DNA of 37,668 nt, from positions 1-37,668 of the forward strand of contig JAURFH010000013.1 in NCBI GenBank assembly GCA_030834415.1. Reading direction: 5' to 3'. Source of the DNA: Verrucomicrobiota bacterium. Its GTDB lineage: Bacteria > Verrucomicrobiota > Verrucomicrobiia > Limisphaerales > JAEYXS01. The notes beneath the pieces are model-generated. The model was not told the origin of the DNA. It was given only the letters and a program-made list of their open reading frames with translations, and made no database searches. Every line of letters begins with the position of its first letter. Position 1 is the first letter of the stretch. A program made the translations under genes and the position numbers. Below, in pieces: positions 25,447 to 33,698 of this stretch.

Positions 25447-26876
25447 TAATGATGTCCTCCGTCTTTGGCACCACCCAGCGGATGGTGCGGGTCTGCCTGC
25501 GGGGTGATGGCTTTCACTTCACAGATGGCAATCATCGGGATGAAGCGCATGAACAGCAGGAACAGGGTAAAGAACTGACCGAACGTACCGAGATACATCA
25601 GGATGTCCACCCAGGTCGGGGAATACCAACCCCAGTTCGCCGGGAGGAAATCGCGGTGCAGCGACGTCACGATGATGACGAAACGCTCGAACCACATGCC
25701 GATGTTCACAATGAGTGACAGGATGAAGATGACCTTCAGATTGCTCCGGAACCATTTGAACCAGAACAACTGCGGGATGATGACGTTCGGCAGGAACATC
25801 CAGAGGTAACCCCAGTAGTAAGGACCGGAGATACGATTCAGGAATGCATAACGCTCAAACGGGCTGCCGCTATACCAGGCGATGAACAGCTCCATGATGT
25901 AGGCGTAACCGACGATGGAACCCGTCGCCAAGATGACTTTGCACATCAGGTCGATGTGGCGCATCGTGATGATGTCTTCCAGCTTGCACAACGTGCGCAG
26001 CGGGATGAGCAACGTCAGCACCATGCCGAAACCGGAGAACACGGCACCAGCCACGAAGTAAGGCGGGAAGATCGTCGTATGCCAGCCCGGGAGCTGCGAA
26101 ACGGCGAAGTCCAAAGACACGATGGAGTGCACGGAAAGCACCAGCGGTGTCGAGAGACCGGCCAGCAAGAGGTAGGCTTTCTCGTAGTTGCTCCAGTGGC
26201 GGTTGGAACCAGTCCAGCCGAAGGAGAAGATACCGTAAGCGAACTTGCGGAGCTTGGTCTTGGCCCGATCGCGCATGACCGCGAGGTCAGGGATCAAACC
26301 CATGAACCAGAACAACACGGAAACCGTGAAGTAAGTGGAGACGGCGAACACGTCCCACATCAGCGGTGAACGGAACTGCGGCCAGATGGCGTTCGAGTTC
26401 GGGATGGGGAACAGGTACCAATCGTACCAGATACGACCGACGTGCAAGGCCGGATAGATACCGGCACACATCACGGCGAAGATGGTCATCGCCTCAGACG
26501 CACGGTTGATCGAAGTACGCCATTTCTGGCGCAACAGGAAGAGAATCGCGGAGATGAGCGTACCGGCATGACCGATACCGATCCACCACACGAAGTTGAT
26601 GATGTCCCAACCCCACATGACCGGGTGGCTGTTACCCCACACACCGACGCCCACGGAGATCTGGTACACGATCATCGCCCCCATCGCCCCGTAGAGGAGC
26701 AAGCTGGGGATCATCATGGCCCACCACCACCAAGGGGTCTTGCCCTCGATGACGGAAGCGACGCGGTCGGACAACCAACCGATGTCGCGGCCTTTATTGA
26801 CTAATACTTCGCGTTCCAGCTCCACCGGCGGAGCCTGGACTTTGAAATTAGCAGGAATCGCGGCTGCGTCTGACAT
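25446..26876 (-). CDS. actC: Alternative Complex III quinol-binding membrane subunit ActC (NrfD/PsrC family)
   Basis: ActC is the NrfD/PsrC-like membrane subunit where quinol is oxidised, next to the ActB iron-sulfur chain. The 476-residue protein has about ten spans after a 50-residue N-terminal tail. Characteristic phrases are [13 protein letters not shown], Tyr-Pro-Ala-Leu-His-Val-Gly-Arg, [11 protein letters not shown] and Asn-Ile-Gly-Met-Trp-Phe-Glu-Arg-Phe. Conserved Asp, His and Arg residues of this kind form the quinone pocket in the family. The C-terminus is His-rich. AAAGGAG lies upstream of the ATG, which overlaps the actB stop by one base. Length and order are normal for ACIII operons. 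Confidence 0.95.
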
Positions 26877-29800
26877 TAGTGCGCTCCTTTCTTGGTCTCT
26901 TCGGTCGTGGTCGCGTGCTCGGCATGGTCATGCCCGGCATGCTCCTCATGCCCGTGCGCCTCAAAACTGTTGTGTTTATTCAACCATTCCTGGGATGTCC
27001 CGGGGAATTCCTGATAGTCAGGCATGGCCTTGTTCTGGTTGCGGATGCGCGCCAGATACGTCGTGCGCGGCTTGGTCAGCAAGAAGTCCAGCACCGAGTA
27101 ATCGCGGTCCATGGCCTTCCACTTGGAGACTTCGCTGTTCGGGTCCTTGATGTTACCGAACGCGATCGCATCTGCCGGGCAAGCCTGCTGGCAAGCGGTC
27201 TTGATGGTCCCATCGGGCACGGCCACGTTATCCGTGTCACGCGCCTTGACCTTCTGGGCGATCTTCGCGCCTTCGATACGCTGTACGCAGAAGGAGCACT
27301 TCTCCATCACACCGCGCATACGCACACTGACATCCGGATTCTTCGCCAGCTTGAGGAGTTCCCACTCCTCATCCTCACGCCAACCGCGCTCTGGGCTCTT
27401 CCACCAACGGGACATGGCCCATTCGCCATTCACCGTGGCCGTGAGCGGCGTGCGGTAGTGCGGTCCGACCAAGTCATTGAGCGGACGCTTGTTGTAATCG
27501 AGATAGTTGAAGCGGCGGACCTTATACGGGCAGTTGTTCGAGCAGTAGCGAGTGCCGACGCAACGGTTGTAGGCCATGACATTCAGGCCTTCTTCGTCGT
27601 GAGCAGTCGCATTCACCGGGCAAACGTTTTCGCACGGTGCCGCCTCGCAATGCTGGCAAAGCATCGGCTGGAAGGCGATCTGCGGGTTCAACAAATCACC
27701 CGCGAAATAACGGTCCATGCGGATCCAGGACATTTCACGTCCACGGCGCACTTGGTCCTTGCCGACAATGGGAACATTGTTCTCGCTTTGGCAGGCGACC
27801 AAGCAAGCGGTGCAACCCACACACGCGCTGAGGTCGATGGCCATGCCCCACTGATGAACGGCCTTGTCCTTCCACGCATCCAACGGATTCGCGTAGAGCG
27901 AAGGAGCTTCCGTCACACCCTTTTCCTTCAGCGCCGGGGAAACCGGAGCCGGGTGCAAGTTCATCAAAGTGGCGAAATCCGGCTGCTTCTTGTACTGATC
28001 CAAGTTCGCTTCGCGGATGATCGAGCGACCCTCCATCACGCCGTGTTCCTGCGTGCTGGCCACCGGATAAGTCTCGGTCGTGCCGGTCAACTTCGCACCG
28101 GGAGCGATGTAAAGCGTCGAAGAAGTGCGCGCGACGTAAGCATTGAAGCCGGCCGGCGTATCCTTCTGGGATTTGGCAATGCGGCCAGCATCAGGACGGC
28201 CATAGCCGAGCTCCAAAGCGACCACGTTGTCGGCCATACCCGGCACGATCCAGATCGGACCCTTGACCGTCTTGCCGTTGACCGAAACTTCAACCACTTG
28301 GTTGTCGAAACGTCCATGAGAGGCCGAAGGCGTCTGGGAAATCTCTTTCTCACCGCTGACCCAACCAGCCAGGCCCAGCGCATTGTTTTCGTTGAAGCGA
28401 CCCACGCCCAAAGCCTTGGCCGTTTCCGGGCTCACGATGATGACGTTGTCCCAAGTCACCTTGGTGATCGGGTTCGGCGTCTCCTGCAGCCAGCCGTTGT
28501 TCGCAAAGCGACCGTCATCCAAGCTGTAGCTACGATGGAAAACCACTTCAAGCGCGTTCTGACTCGGAGCCGGAAGCACTTTCGCACCCTTCAGCGCGGC
28601 GGCGATGCCGGTGCTGAGCGTGACCGTGACCGACTTGGCCGAACTGCCAGCGAGGTAACCGTCATGCAGGAACTTGCGCCACGCATTCTCATCACCACCG
28701 TCAAGGGCGGAGAAGGTTTCACGGACGATATCGTAAGGATTGGTCTTCGACTGACCGCCGATGCGGGCGAGCACTTCGAGTTCCGTGACGCCGCCGAAAA
28801 GCGGCTGGATGAGCGGCTGCACGGGCACCAACGTGCCATCCGACGTGCGGGCATCACCCCAAGATTCCAAGTAATGCGCGAGCGGCAAGTGCCAGCCCTT
28901 CTTCACGAAAGATTCATCTTCCGTGTAGCCGAGGCGGATCACCGTACCCGCCTTGGCCTGCGCGGCTGCCCAACCCAGATCAGCGGGCGCATTGTAAACC
29001 GGATTGCCACCGAGGATGACCAACGTGGAAACATCACCCGCGTTCAAGGACGCGGCGAGTTCCTGGATGGTGCCCTTCACCGGCTCAACAGCCGGGAGGT
29101 AGTTGACCGTCGTGCCCACCGCACCAAGCGCGGCATTGAGCACATGCGCCATGAGGTGAACTTCCAGCGGCTGCTGGTAACCGGCCAAAACGAGGCTTTC
29201 TTTGCCACCGGCCACCAAATCCTTGGCGCACTCGGTGATCCACTTGTCATCCGCCTTGCCCTGCGAAGCGATCGGCTCCAAGGCCTGAACCACGGCGCTA
29301 TAACCCGACTTCTGGCTGAGGATCGCGACCGCGATCTTTGCTGCGATCGGCAAAACGTTGCTGGCCGCCGTGCGCATGCGATGATCCGCATTCGCACCCG
29401 TGAGGCTATACAGCGCCTCAACCGCATACAGACGGTTCATGTCATCATGAGCCGTCTTGGTCTTGCGATTCTTCGTGAAGCCATGGATCAACGCGCAGGC
29501 GTCCTGCTCGTTGCCGATGAAATCACAATCCAGCGAGAGAATGCGCTTGGCGGCACCCAACTGGTAATCCGGACGGACCGACTTACCGAACACCGTGGAA
29601 GCCGCTTGACGATGGATATCGAAATCAACCGGCTCGTAGATATACCACTTGGCCTGCGGCAACTTCGTGGAAATGGCTTTGATGAGACGGCTACGGGAAG
29701 GTGAGCTGCTGCGCTCCAACAGGAAGCTCAGACCAGCCCCCTTGGTCGCGGCCATATCAGCGCCCAACTTGTTCAGGGCGTCGAGAGCCACATTGCGATC

Positions 29801-30286
29801 CACGCCGGCACCATCCTTGGTGAAGCGTTGAGCGCGATCGACATCATACAGATTCAGCAGGGAAGCTTGCGCGAACTGGTCCGTGCCGCCTTTGCTGCCG
29901 GGAATCTGGCTGTTACCTTCCACCTTGACCGGACGGCCTTCATGGGCACGTACCACCAAGGGGATCGCCGAACCGCGCGTCGGATAAGCCGAGGCGTAAA
30001 ATTGAGAGACACCGTGCGTGTAGTCCTCCGGCATCTTGGAGAACGGGAGGATATGCTCCTCGGGACGGCGGCAACCGGTCAGACCCACACCCGCCAGCAA
30101 GAACGAGGCGGACATGATCTTTACGAAGTTACGGCGGGAAACCGGGTCCACAAACTCGCTGGCACCTTCAGGAAACTCGCGCTCGAGCCACTGCCGGAAC
30201 TCCGGCGTGTCCTGCAACTGGTCCATACTGCGCCAGTATTGCTGGCCAGACTTCGGCTCCGTATGGGTAGGGGGAATTGTTTTCAT
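26876..30286 (-). CDS. actB: Alternative Complex III iron-sulfur subunit ActB (fused B1-B2)
   Basis: ActB joins a molybdopterin-enzyme-like domain without molybdopterin (about residues 90-780) to a four-cluster ferredoxin-like domain (about 810-1080). A Tat motif Ser-Arg51-Arg52-Asn-Phe-Val-Lys leads to the lipobox Leu-Thr-Gly-Cys72, so the mature protein should be a periplasmic lipoprotein. Iron-sulfur cysteines are at 822/825/828/832, 877/880/885/889, 909/915/919, 997/1000 and 1032/1036. These fifteen cysteines fit three [4Fe-4S] and one [3Fe-4S] cluster, as known for ACIII. The 1136 residues form a single uninterrupted polypeptide. The tail after 1108 is strikingly His-rich. It overlaps actA by 4 bp and actC by one base. 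It carries electrons from the ActC quinol site to the haems. Confidence 0.96.
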
Positions 30287-30951
30287 CGATGGCAGGTCGA
30301 GCAGCTTTGGGACGACTGCACGTTCATCTTATGGACCATTTCAAGACCGTAAGCCTCTTGCTTCGCAGCATTGGCCTTCGGGTCCTCGCTCCATTTCCAG
30401 TCCAAATCAGTGATATGCTCCAACGGCCGGATGGCCTTTTCCGGATTACGATGGCAATCCAGACAGAACGACATGCTCAGCGGCTTGGAGTGGTAAACCT
30501 CGTCCATGTGGTTGATCTGGCCGTGGCATTCCACGCAACTGACACCACGATTCACATGCACCGAGTGGTTGAAATAGACGTAATCTGGCACCTTGTGGAT
30601 CTGCACCCACGGGATGGGCTTGTTCTCATTGAAGCTGTCACGCACCACCTGCAGCTTCGGATCATCCTTCAGCACCTGATTGTGGCAGTTCATGCACAAG
30701 CTGGCAGCCGGGACATTCGAATACCAGGACTTCTCCACGCCGTTATGGCAGTAGCGGCAGTCCAACCCCAATTGATCTGCGTGAATCTTATGTGAAAAAG
30801 CCACCGGCTGCTTCGGCTGGTAGCCGACGCGCGTGTATTTCGGTGTGAAGTAGTACCACACACCGGCGGTGACCGCCGTGCCGACCAAGGATGCTCCCAC
30901 CACAATCAAGAGTGGCAGCTTATTGGTCCATTTAGGAAAAATGTCTGACAT
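30283..30951 (-). CDS. actA: Alternative Complex III pentaheme cytochrome c subunit ActA
   Basis: ActA is the multiheme cytochrome c of Alternative Complex III. The 222-residue protein has one membrane anchor (about 12-33) and five haem motifs: Cys65-x-x-Cys-His69, Cys86-His90, Cys139-His143, Cys163-His167 and Cys217-His221. The last lies one residue before the C-terminus. Extra histidines (Phe-Ser-His-Lys-Ile-His; Phe-Asn-His-Ser-Val-His; His-Met-Asp) are candidate distal ligands. Five haems is the number known for ActA. It is the first gene of the ten-gene respiratory operon, so the operon promoter should lie in the 465 bp upstream. No convincing Shine-Dalgarno sequence precedes its ATG. 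Confidence 0.95.
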   Translation of the reverse strand: MSDIFPKWTNKLPLLIVVGASLVGTAVTAGVWYYFTPKYTRVGYQPKQPVAFSHKIHADQLGLDCRYCHNGVEKSWYSNVPAASLCMNCHNQVLKDDPKLQVVRDSFNENKPIPWVQIHKVPDYVYFNHSVHVNRGVSCVECHGQINHMDEVYHSKPLSMSFCLDCHRNPEKAIRPLEHITDLDWKWSEDPKANAAKQEAYGLEMVHKMNVQSSQSCSTCHR

Positions 30952-31416: not shown

Positions 31417-32430
31417 TCAGCCGTATATTTGGGCCAATCCAGCGGGAGTTTGATATCGCTCCACTAATCCCGCATGAACTTGGGAATCGATATTCCCGCC
31501 CGTCAACGGCAACACCACCCGCTTGCCGCCCAGTGACGGCAGCTTCCCGCTGAGTAACGCCGCCAGTGGTGCCGCACCAGCGCCCTCCACCACCGCACCT
31601 TCCGTTTCCGCCAGCACTGCGATCGCCTCGCCCAATTCATCCTCACTCACCGTCACCAGATCATCCACCCACGGTGCGGCATTCGCATAGGTCACCTTAC
31701 CCGCTTCCGCCACCGCCAAGCCATCCGCCAAAGTAGCTGTGGTTGGGACACGAACTGGGCCACCATGATGAAGTGCTTGCGAAAAACAGGCGGCATTCAC
31801 AGGCTCCACACCGATGACCTGCACCTCTGGCTTGAGCGCCCGCAAGACCGTCACCACACCCGCCAATAAACCACCTCCCCCTACCGGCACCAATACAGCA
31901 TCGAAATCCGGCACCTGCCCCAACAACTCCAACGCCAATGTCCCTTGCCCCGCGATCACCCGCACATCATCAAACGGCGGCACATAAGCTAGGCCCCACT
32001 CCTCGGACAGTGAGAAGGCAAAGGCCCGTGTCTCATCAAAGCTGTCCCCGTGCAGCACCACATGCGCTCCTAGCTGGCGACAGCGCGTCACCTTCACTTG
32101 GGGAGCATTACGCGGCACCACCACCGTCACCGGGAAGCCCAACTGCCGCCCATGCCAGGCCAGCCCCAGCGCGTGGTTCCCGGCGGAAGCCGCCACGACT
32201 CCCCGCCGCGCCTCGTGTCGGGGCAACAGACTCAGAGCACTCCGAGCCCCTCGTTCTTTGAAACTGCCCGTGCGCTGGAGATACTCTCTTTTGCACCACA
32301 CCTCGCTGCCGGTCAGCTCAGACAAGCCCAAGGACCGCTCACACGGCGTACGCACAATCGCCCCGCCGATCCGGGCTTGGGCGGCTATGACGTCAGTGAG
32401 AGTTACATTTTGGGCTGTTTGAGTTTTCAT
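31417..32430 (-). CDS. threonine/serine dehydratase (PLP-dependent, IlvA-like without ACT domain)
   Basis: The enzyme should deaminate threonine to 2-oxobutanoate, the first step towards isoleucine, and possibly serine to pyruvate. I use the ATG at 32430 (337 residues); an in-frame TTG six codons earlier lies inside the terminator tail. PLP-fold type II motifs are present: Lys58 in Gly-Ser-Phe-Lys-Glu-Arg-Gly-Ala, Ser-Ala-Gly-Asn-His-Ala-Leu-Gly (82-89), and Gly-Gly-Gly-Gly-Leu-Leu-Ala-Gly for the phosphate. The C-terminal ACT-like regulatory domain of long biosynthetic IlvA is absent, so direct isoleucine feedback is unlikely. Instead an isoleucine-rich leader peptide and terminator precede the gene, which supports a biosynthetic role controlled by attenuation. 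No Shine-Dalgarno sequence is seen. Confidence 0.9.
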   Translation of the reverse strand: MKTQTAQNVTLTDVIAAQARIGGAIVRTPCERSLGLSELTGSEVWCKREYLQRTGSFKERGARSALSLLPRHEARRGVVAASAGNHALGLAWHGRQLGFPVTVVVPRNAPQVKVTRCRQLGAHVVLHGDSFDETRAFAFSLSEEWGLAYVPPFDDVRVIAGQGTLALELLGQVPDFDAVLVPVGGGGLLAGVVTVLRALKPEVQVIGVEPVNAACFSQALHHGGPVRVPTTATLADGLAVAEAGKVTYANAAPWVDDLVTVSEDELGEAIAVLAETEGAVVEGAGAAPLAALLSGKLPSLGGKRVVLPLTGGNIDSQVHAGLVERYQTPAGLAQIYG

Positions 32431-32441
32431 GGAGATTTCGG

Positions 32442-32475
32442 AAAACAAAAAAGCCCTGAGAGGAATCTCAGGGCT
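32442..32475 (-). terminator. attenuator terminator before the dehydratase
   Basis: AGCCCTGAGA/TCTCAGGGCT is a perfect 10-bp stem with a TTCC loop, followed on the minus strand by TTTTTGTTTTC. It ends 11 nt before the dehydratase ATG, in the same direction, so it must stop transcription before the gene unless overridden. Its 5' arm can instead pair with the end of the leader-peptide coding region. Confidence 0.82.
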
Positions 32476-32523
32476 GGGGTGAAATCGCTAGTTATCGATG
32501 CGCGCGCTTACCCTTGCCCCGAG
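32467..32523 (-). promoter_or_regulatory. antiterminator helix of the isoleucine attenuator
   Basis: On the minus strand CTCGGGGCAAGGGT (32523-32510, the last Ser-Gly-Gln-Gly codons of the leader) can pair with ACCCCAGCCCTGAG (32480-32467). That gives eight pairs with one G-U, a 2x2 internal loop, then four pairs. The second segment includes the 5' arm of the terminator stem, so the two helices exclude each other. A ribosome stalled at the leader's Ile codons would leave the first segment free and allow read-through; a ribosome at the stop codon would cover it. Confidence 0.65.
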
Positions 32524-32582
32524 GAGGAGGCAATAATCATGATCCCGGCGATCATAATGTAATGGGCGATGTTAGAACGCAT
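32508..32582 (-). CDS. isoleucine-rich leader peptide of the dehydratase
   Basis: A 24-codon reading frame (ATG at 32582, TAA at 32508-32510) encodes Met-Arg-Ser-Asn-Ile-Ala-His-Tyr-Ile, then Met-Ile-Ala-Gly-Ile-Met-Ile-Ile-Ala, then Ser-Ser-Ser-Gly-Gln-Gly. Six of 24 residues are Ile, with an Ile-Met-Ile-Ile cluster at 14-17. A shorter form could start at the ATG at 32555. It ends just before the antiterminator/terminator pair that precedes the threonine dehydratase, the enzyme that commits threonine to isoleucine. Size, codon bias and position match amino-acid attenuator leader peptides such as those of ilv operons. No clear Shine-Dalgarno sequence is seen, so translation is inferred. Confidence 0.72.
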   Translation of the reverse strand: MRSNIAHYIMIAGIMIIASSSGQG

Positions 32583-32649
32583 CAACGGCTGGAAAATCGC
32601 AGAAACCGGCCCCTTGTCAAGGATGAGGAAAATTGGCTACGGGTTTCTT

Positions 32650-32711: not shown

Positions 32712-33698
32712 TTATAAACCAAGACTGCGCCGCACATCGGTGAGACAATCCGGACAATAGCTATGGGAGAAAGTCGCCGGGGTACGTGACATCAGATAGC
32801 GCTCCAACGAATTCCAGTCACCCCGGTCGTCGCGGATCTTCTTGCATGTTGTGCAGATGGTGATCATGCCGCGCAAAGTCCGCATGTTACTGAGGGAGGA
32901 CTGCAAGCTGCGGATGAGCTTATCCACCTCCTGCTCGAAACGGCGACGGCGGGAGATATCCCGCATGAAAACCACCAGCCAGCGTTGGCCCTTGGCCTCG
33001 ATCACATTGATGGTCGTCTCTGCAGGAAATGTGGTGGCATCATGGCGCAATGCATGGATCTCCATCCAGAGATCTCCCTGGGTCTTACGACCGGCCCGGA
33101 ATTCTTCCAGTTCCTGGTTGAACCAGCCGTACCATTCAAAGGAGATGACTTTTTCAACGAAACTTTTACCGGCCAGATCCTTCGTCTGATAGCCCAGTAT
33201 GCTCTCGGCAGCCGGGTTCAGCTCGCAAATGGTGCCGTCCATGTCCAGCAGCAGTACGCCATCCGGAGCGGCATTCACCGTCACATTGCTGCGCGGAGAG
33301 CGGGCTTCGTTCTCGATTTCCCGGCCATGCTTGAAGAGCGCCACCTCGATGGCCGCATGCAGTTCCGGCTCCACGAACGGCTTGAGCAGAAAACCGTACG
33401 GCTCGGTTTGCTTGGCGCGGTCCAGTGTCGAGGAGTCCGAATAAGCCGTCAGATAGATCACCGGCAGATTGTGCTTTTGGCGCAGGCGCGAGGCCGTTTC
33501 CACGCCATCGATGCCACCACGCAGGTTGATATCCATCAACACGAGGTCGGGCCGCAGCGTTGCTGCCTGTTTCAGGGCATCTTCGCCTGTCATCGAAATG
33601 GCTGGCACGCGATAACCCAGATGGGTCAGGCGCTGGCTCAGATCGCGGGCCACGATGCCTTCGTCTTCGACCACCAGGATGGAGGGGGAATCTTTCAT
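32712..33698 (-). CDS. response regulator: REC-PAS with C-terminal cysteine motif
   Basis: The 328-residue protein starts with a receiver domain (about 5-120): acidic pocket Glu11-Asp12, phosphoacceptor Asp56 (Leu-Met-Asp-Ile-Asn), Thr84 and Lys106. A PAS domain (about 138-250) follows, ending in the Val-Val-Phe-Met-Arg-Asp-Ile-Ser-Arg strand. After a short coiled coil comes a conserved tail with Cys282-x-x-Cys285-Lys-Lys-Ile-Arg-Asp-Asp and Ser-His312-x-x-Cys315-x-x-Cys318, seen in many PAS signalling proteins and probably metal-binding. There is no DNA-binding or GGDEF output domain. The start overlaps the kinase gene by 4 bp, so the two form one unit. How the signal is read out is unknown. 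Confidence 0.87.

Follow-up and report, generated by a model that had tools for sequence, protein, structure and literature searches.

The ilv, thr and trp attenuators of Proteobacteria, for instance thrL of E. coli, combine a small open reading frame (ORF) carrying codons for the end product, the alternative pairings 1:2, 2:3 and 3:4, a U-tract and a biosynthetic gene. In Corynebacterium, the ilvB-II uORF and ilvBNC attenuator are described as regulating expression of the ilv operon (PMC10272879, PMC11857589), and there too a terminator and a complementary antiterminator accompany a uORF enriched in branched-chain codons. Leader-peptide systems were known to Naville and Gautheret (2010) in Proteobacteria and Actinobacteria only, to which they added Firmicutes (PMC2965389). 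Among openly accessible papers on Verrucomicrobia and leader peptides no relevant report was found, a search that does not in itself prove novelty, and Verrucomicrobia are absent from the main text of two structured-RNA surveys. The mechanism considered here, ribosome-mediated attenuation, is a known one, and the present case is probably its first report for Verrucomicrobiota.

The element precedes a threonine dehydratase-like gene, ilvA, in a stretch of 37,668 nucleotides of Verrucomicrobiota DNA (hereafter the window). Judged from its sequence and its conservation, it is very probably a ribosome-mediated transcription attenuator that makes ilvA expression depend on how much charged tRNA-Ile is available. 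Unlike the proteobacterial attenuators, which control a large ilv operon and carry mixed branched-chain codons, it stands directly before ilvA (or, in other genomes, the citramalate synthase gene cimA) and uses Ile codons alone; moreover, its segment 2 lies within the last leader codons, its mRNA is probably leaderless, it belongs to another phylum and it has no Rfam match. The Corynebacterium attenuator differs in its ilvBNC target, its mixed Ile/Leu/Val codons and its actinobacterial host, with no sequence relation seen.

All parts lie on the minus strand, in the 5' to 3' order TTGACA, Ile leader, terminator, U-tract and ilvA start (Table 1). The original prediction had described a 24-codon frame with six Ile codons upstream of the dehydratase, as well as a perfect stem of 10 bp with a T-rich tail ending 11 nt before the start codon, and both can be read directly in the sequence, where the stem has the loop TTCC. 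Six or more Ile codons in 24 would be expected by chance with a probability of 3e-4 at the window's own Ile frequency; the final two are adjacent. Elsewhere in the window, at 26876-30951 on the minus strand, two adjacent genes resemble a multihaem cytochrome c and a large iron-sulphur/molybdopterin-type membrane complex subunit, and are perhaps an alternative complex III operon.

Table 1. Features of the ilvA leader region in the window
Feature	Position	Strand	Sequence or role	Basis
-35-like hexamer	32615..32620	minus	TTGACA, 38 nt before leader AUG	TTGAC spacing kept in relatives
Leader ORF	32508..32582	minus	24 codons plus stop, peptide MRSNIAHYIMIAGIMIIASSSGQG	ATG 32582 to TAA 32508; frame kept in relatives
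Tandem Ile codons	32532..32537	minus	ATT ATT, codons 16-17; main predicted stall site	aligned place; tandem Ile in 34/37 leaders
Remaining Ile codons of leader	32570-32568, 32558-32556, 32552-32550, 32543-32541	minus
Segment 1	32527..32533	minus	TTGCCTC; partner of segment 2 in 1:2 protector hairpin	just after Ile codons
Segment 2	32510..32523	minus	CTCGGGGC AA GGGT; pairs with segment 1 or 3	last leader codons and first stop base
Leader stop codon	32510-32508	minus	first base is the end of segment 2
Segment 3	32467..32480	minus	ACCC C A GCCCTGAG; forms the antiterminator with segment 2 or, by its 3' part, the terminator with segment 4
Intrinsic terminator stem-loop 3:4	32452..32475	minus	AGCCCTGAGA TTCC TCTCAGGGCT	stem 32475-32466 / 32461-32452
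U-tract	32442..32451	minus	tail TTTTTGTTTT	sequence
ilvA	31417..32430	minus	threonine dehydratase-like PLP enzyme, 337 aa, catalytic domain only	PF00291; motifs

Segments 2 and 3 pair through 8 bp (CTCGGGGC:GCCCTGAG) plus GGGT:ACCC, as had been proposed. The pairing of leader with terminator amounts to -16.9 kcal/mol vs -10.2 kcal/mol in shuffled sequences (p = 0.002), only 0.2% of the shuffled leaders pairing as strongly with the terminator arm. Because this helix overlaps the 5' arm of the terminator, it excludes 3:4, so that the mutual exclusivity claimed for the two helices holds. Segments 1 and 2 can further form a protector hairpin of -9.3 kcal/mol, and an equivalent GCCCC-n-GGGGC hairpin occurs in relatives. 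All three classical alternatives (1:2, 2:3 and 3:4) are thus present, of which two had been noted at first.

Covariation in relatives, which had been set beforehand as a test, is seen in both exclusive helices. Alignments A1, A3 and A5 were used; alignment A2 (MAFFT) misplaces a gap in the terminator of the window genome. Over 25 sequences, in the terminator 98.2% of cells are paired and 18 are double-sided compensatory, against a shuffled mean of 5.8. The antiterminator is 92.9% paired, with a covariation score of 0.267 against a shuffled mean of 0.208; neither value was reached in 500 shuffles. Within the order alone antiterminator covariation does not exceed that of shuffles, and the signal needs the wider set. 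At alignment column 152, in segment 3, A changes to G in a minority of sequences, and in several of these (G536, G404, G462 and G459) the bases facing it in segments 2 and 4 have both changed accordingly, which is what the use of both helices predicts. Exact re-matching is also found, CCCGGGC facing CCCCGGGC in G462 and G459 and TCAGGGC facing GCCCTGA in G418. Since kinship among the sequences inflates shuffle tests, the case rests jointly on the two helices, the reading frame and the gene linkage.

The sequence TTGAC lies 36-42 nt 5' of the leader AUG in 22 of the 22 leaders outside family f66 (window-type loci). This constant spacing places the predicted transcription start probably at, or within a few nucleotides of, the leader AUG, and the leader mRNA would then probably be leaderless. 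In the window the -10 element is weak and the Shine-Dalgarno sequence of the leader is weak or absent, so translation of the leader would rely on this presumed leaderless start.

The ORF, its Ile bias, the exclusive helices, their conservation and covariation and the linkage to the first step specific to isoleucine are observed, and from them leader translation, stalling, termination and read-through can be predicted as follows. RNA polymerase would start at or next to the leader AUG with a ribosome trailing behind. When isoleucine is plentiful, the ribosome would reach the stop codon and cover segment 2, the 3:4 terminator would form and ilvA would be off. When isoleucine is short, a ribosome stalled on the Ile codons would cover segment 1 and free segment 2, which would capture segment 3 ahead of the synthesis of segment 4; the terminator would not form in time and ilvA would be transcribed. 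Without translation, the 1:2 hairpin would sequester segment 2, making termination the default.

Folding the transcript with and without a stalled ribosome, the check suggested originally, bears this out in part. With the A site on the last Ile run, the leader holds segment 3 of the modelled nascent RNA at a point where segment 4 has yet to be made, whereas a ribosome at the stop codon leaves segment 3 free. After segment 4 has been transcribed, however, the terminator state is the more stable in every case, in the window by 3.9-6.6 kcal/mol despite the stalled ribosome. The switch would therefore be set before the polymerase reaches segment 4, and according to the modelling antitermination must be kinetic rather than an equilibrium process. 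An apparent lack of the antiterminator in G404 and G459 came from the late Ile codon chosen, and the helix does form there. The locus thus combines a leader of cognate codons, an intrinsic terminator, an exclusive antiterminator gated by the ribosome in modelling, and linkage to a biosynthetic gene.

Orthologues from the window's genus and from three further families have the same layout upstream, in different sequences. Across 320 genomes of the order, a covariance model built from five ilvA leaders (R1) gave 17 strong matches, all with E <= 8e-11 and all before ilvA. A second model (R2) also catches plain terminators, so its matches counted only if they were full-length and had an Ile leader. 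Sampling the phylum and class with R1 and R2 located the element upstream of ilvA in families f66, f69 and f154 and upstream of cimA elsewhere (G404, G459, G611, G579, G410, G590 and G862). Ile-rich leaders upstream of orthologues, which had been anticipated, thus precede ilvA in many families and cimA in others; 37 were tabulated, 30 before ilvA and seven before cimA. All strong matches adjoin one of these two genes, and the weak R1 matches (E > 0.001, except that of G459 before cimA) were ordinary terminators or chance hits where inspected. Named genomes scanned with the window protein yielded nothing; scanned with an alignment they yielded 80 loci, one of which has the attenuator, before the ilvA of an uncultured Opitutae bacterium (L190), indicating that the carrier class most likely lies within Verrucomicrobiota.

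At three loci the gene behind the element appears damaged. In the same genus as the window (L035, G001:C233:6243-6721), the leader is intact and the ilvA start has a deletion and a frame break, through either decay or assembly error. At L045 (G155:C341) leader and terminator are intact, most of the ilvA catalytic domain is gone and an ACT remnant follows, and at L070 (G602:C56) the ilvA frame behind the attenuator is apparently broken near its start.

2-Oxobutyrate, which feeds isoleucine, is reached through threonine dehydratase as well as through citramalate synthase, and acetolactate synthase (ilvB) serves valine, leucine and isoleucine. Codon usage follows this division. The ilvA leaders (n = 30) contain 20.0% Ile and 3.4% Val and the cimA leaders (n = 7) 23.6% Ile and 2.8% Val, Ile making up 4% of the window's proteins; tandem Ile occurs in 34 of the 37 and tandem Val in none. 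In the conserved leader of G158 the only Ile codon follows two Leu codons. By contrast, five ilvB leaders from the same set of genomes (L243-L247) contain 27.4% Val and 4.8% Ile, with tandem Val in all five, tandem Ile in none, and a strong terminator after each. The ilvB attenuators resemble those of ilvA in logic, TTGAC-to-AUG spacing and hosts, and differ in their Val codons, their helices and their target. That of the window genome (L246, G000:C454) reads MILSVQVLVVVAGVTSPAAGPCRC, and its AUG lies about 40 nt downstream of TTGAC. Leader codons and controlled step thus agree. Nothing useful came of searches for leuA (TIGR00973) or for His leaders upstream of hisG.

This shift of the enriched residue from Ile to Val with the downstream gene also weighs against reading the small ORF as a functional hydrophobic micropeptide, placed before ilvA for co-transcription. 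The ORF is indeed conserved, has a hydrophobic middle and starts with AUG in most genomes; nevertheless, the peptide ends vary freely (SGQG, SGRRRVAV, PGHGDVA, PGQVDAA, SGVGILA) while the RNA pairings persist, which makes this explanation very improbable. Slightly less credible still is direct sensing of isoleucine or tRNA by a riboswitch or T-box that needs no translation. Riboswitch expression platforms likewise use exclusive terminator and antiterminator helices, but here no aptamer-like conserved structure is seen beyond the three helices, and the frame and its Ile codons are conserved. Rfam gave no match at the gathering threshold in the window, T-box included, and the T-box model found none at a permissive E-value in 12 related loci; among the Rfam amino-acid leader families Leu_leader scored best, reaching 22.6 bits on L075 where its cut-off is 50. 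The idea that the hairpin merely terminates the upstream response-regulator gene (32712-33698, minus strand), with the ORF and the complementarity due to chance, has as little to commend it: that gene, on the same strand, does end some 240 nt upstream, and no further terminator is evident between it and ilvA, but leader and terminator stay with ilvA or cimA where the upstream gene differs between families, which refutes this role and assigns the terminator to ilvA, and the conserved leader frame, Ile run and covarying helices speak against a chance ORF.

Ribosome-mediated attenuation therefore remains the preferred reading, and the ilv-type logic of the original prediction finds support, on sequence grounds, in the Ile bias, the exclusive covarying helices and the ilvA/cimA linkage. 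It had also been observed that the dehydratase lacks the regulatory ACT domain, which proves correct, as PF00291 is its sole Pfam match. The lysine motif TGSFKERG and the GGGG loop are both present in the enzyme. In NCBIfam it scores highest with models of threonine ammonia-lyase, all under their cut-offs (320.8 bits vs 378.75 for TIGR01127, single-ACT IlvA), likely because the ACT part is missing; the PLP catalytic domain is present without the C-terminal ACT domain that would make it a single-ACT IlvA.

The further proposal that transcriptional control may replace allosteric feedback finds support only in part. Attenuated IlvA proteins form a single clade (support 94/94), inside which the window enzyme nests and the majority of which has ACT: the domain is kept in 18 of 27 and absent in nine, which group together with support 83/75. 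In the sampled IlvA proteins without an attenuator ACT is present throughout (17/17). As far as the tree indicates, the attenuator probably predates the loss of ACT, and with ACT retained in 18 of 27 that loss was not the reason for the switch. The loss may have been one event, in which case there is no statistical case for attenuation replacing ACT.

A cimA-like gene was found in all 36 genomes checked, partial or only distantly matching in a few. No recognisable leader was seen in 20 cimA upstream regions read where ilvA has the leader. Genus g134 and G862, in which no IlvA was found, carry the leader on cimA, and in genus g136 a second, ACT-bearing IlvA remains. Shared neighbours suggest that the leader-bearing cimA stands at its usual locus. 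In family f66 (L129-L136) an ACT-bearing second IlvA occurs beside an attenuated ACT-less IlvA or an attenuated cimA, and the coexistence of these forms suggests a division of roles.

If confirmed, these findings would extend leader-peptide attenuation to another phylum. There is about an even chance that a class of Verrucomicrobiota controls branched-chain synthesis by leaderless, amino-acid-specific attenuators, with Val codons on ilvB and Ile codons on ilvA or cimA, that cimA gained the element where an attenuated ilvA is absent, and that ACT was dropped only in lineages already attenuated. If this is true, transcriptional feedback persists while the enzyme under it and its allostery are exchanged. 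The genomes form a natural series in which one kind of control element precedes the genes of two different entry enzymes, with or without the allosteric domain, and this makes the trade between transcriptional and allosteric control directly testable.
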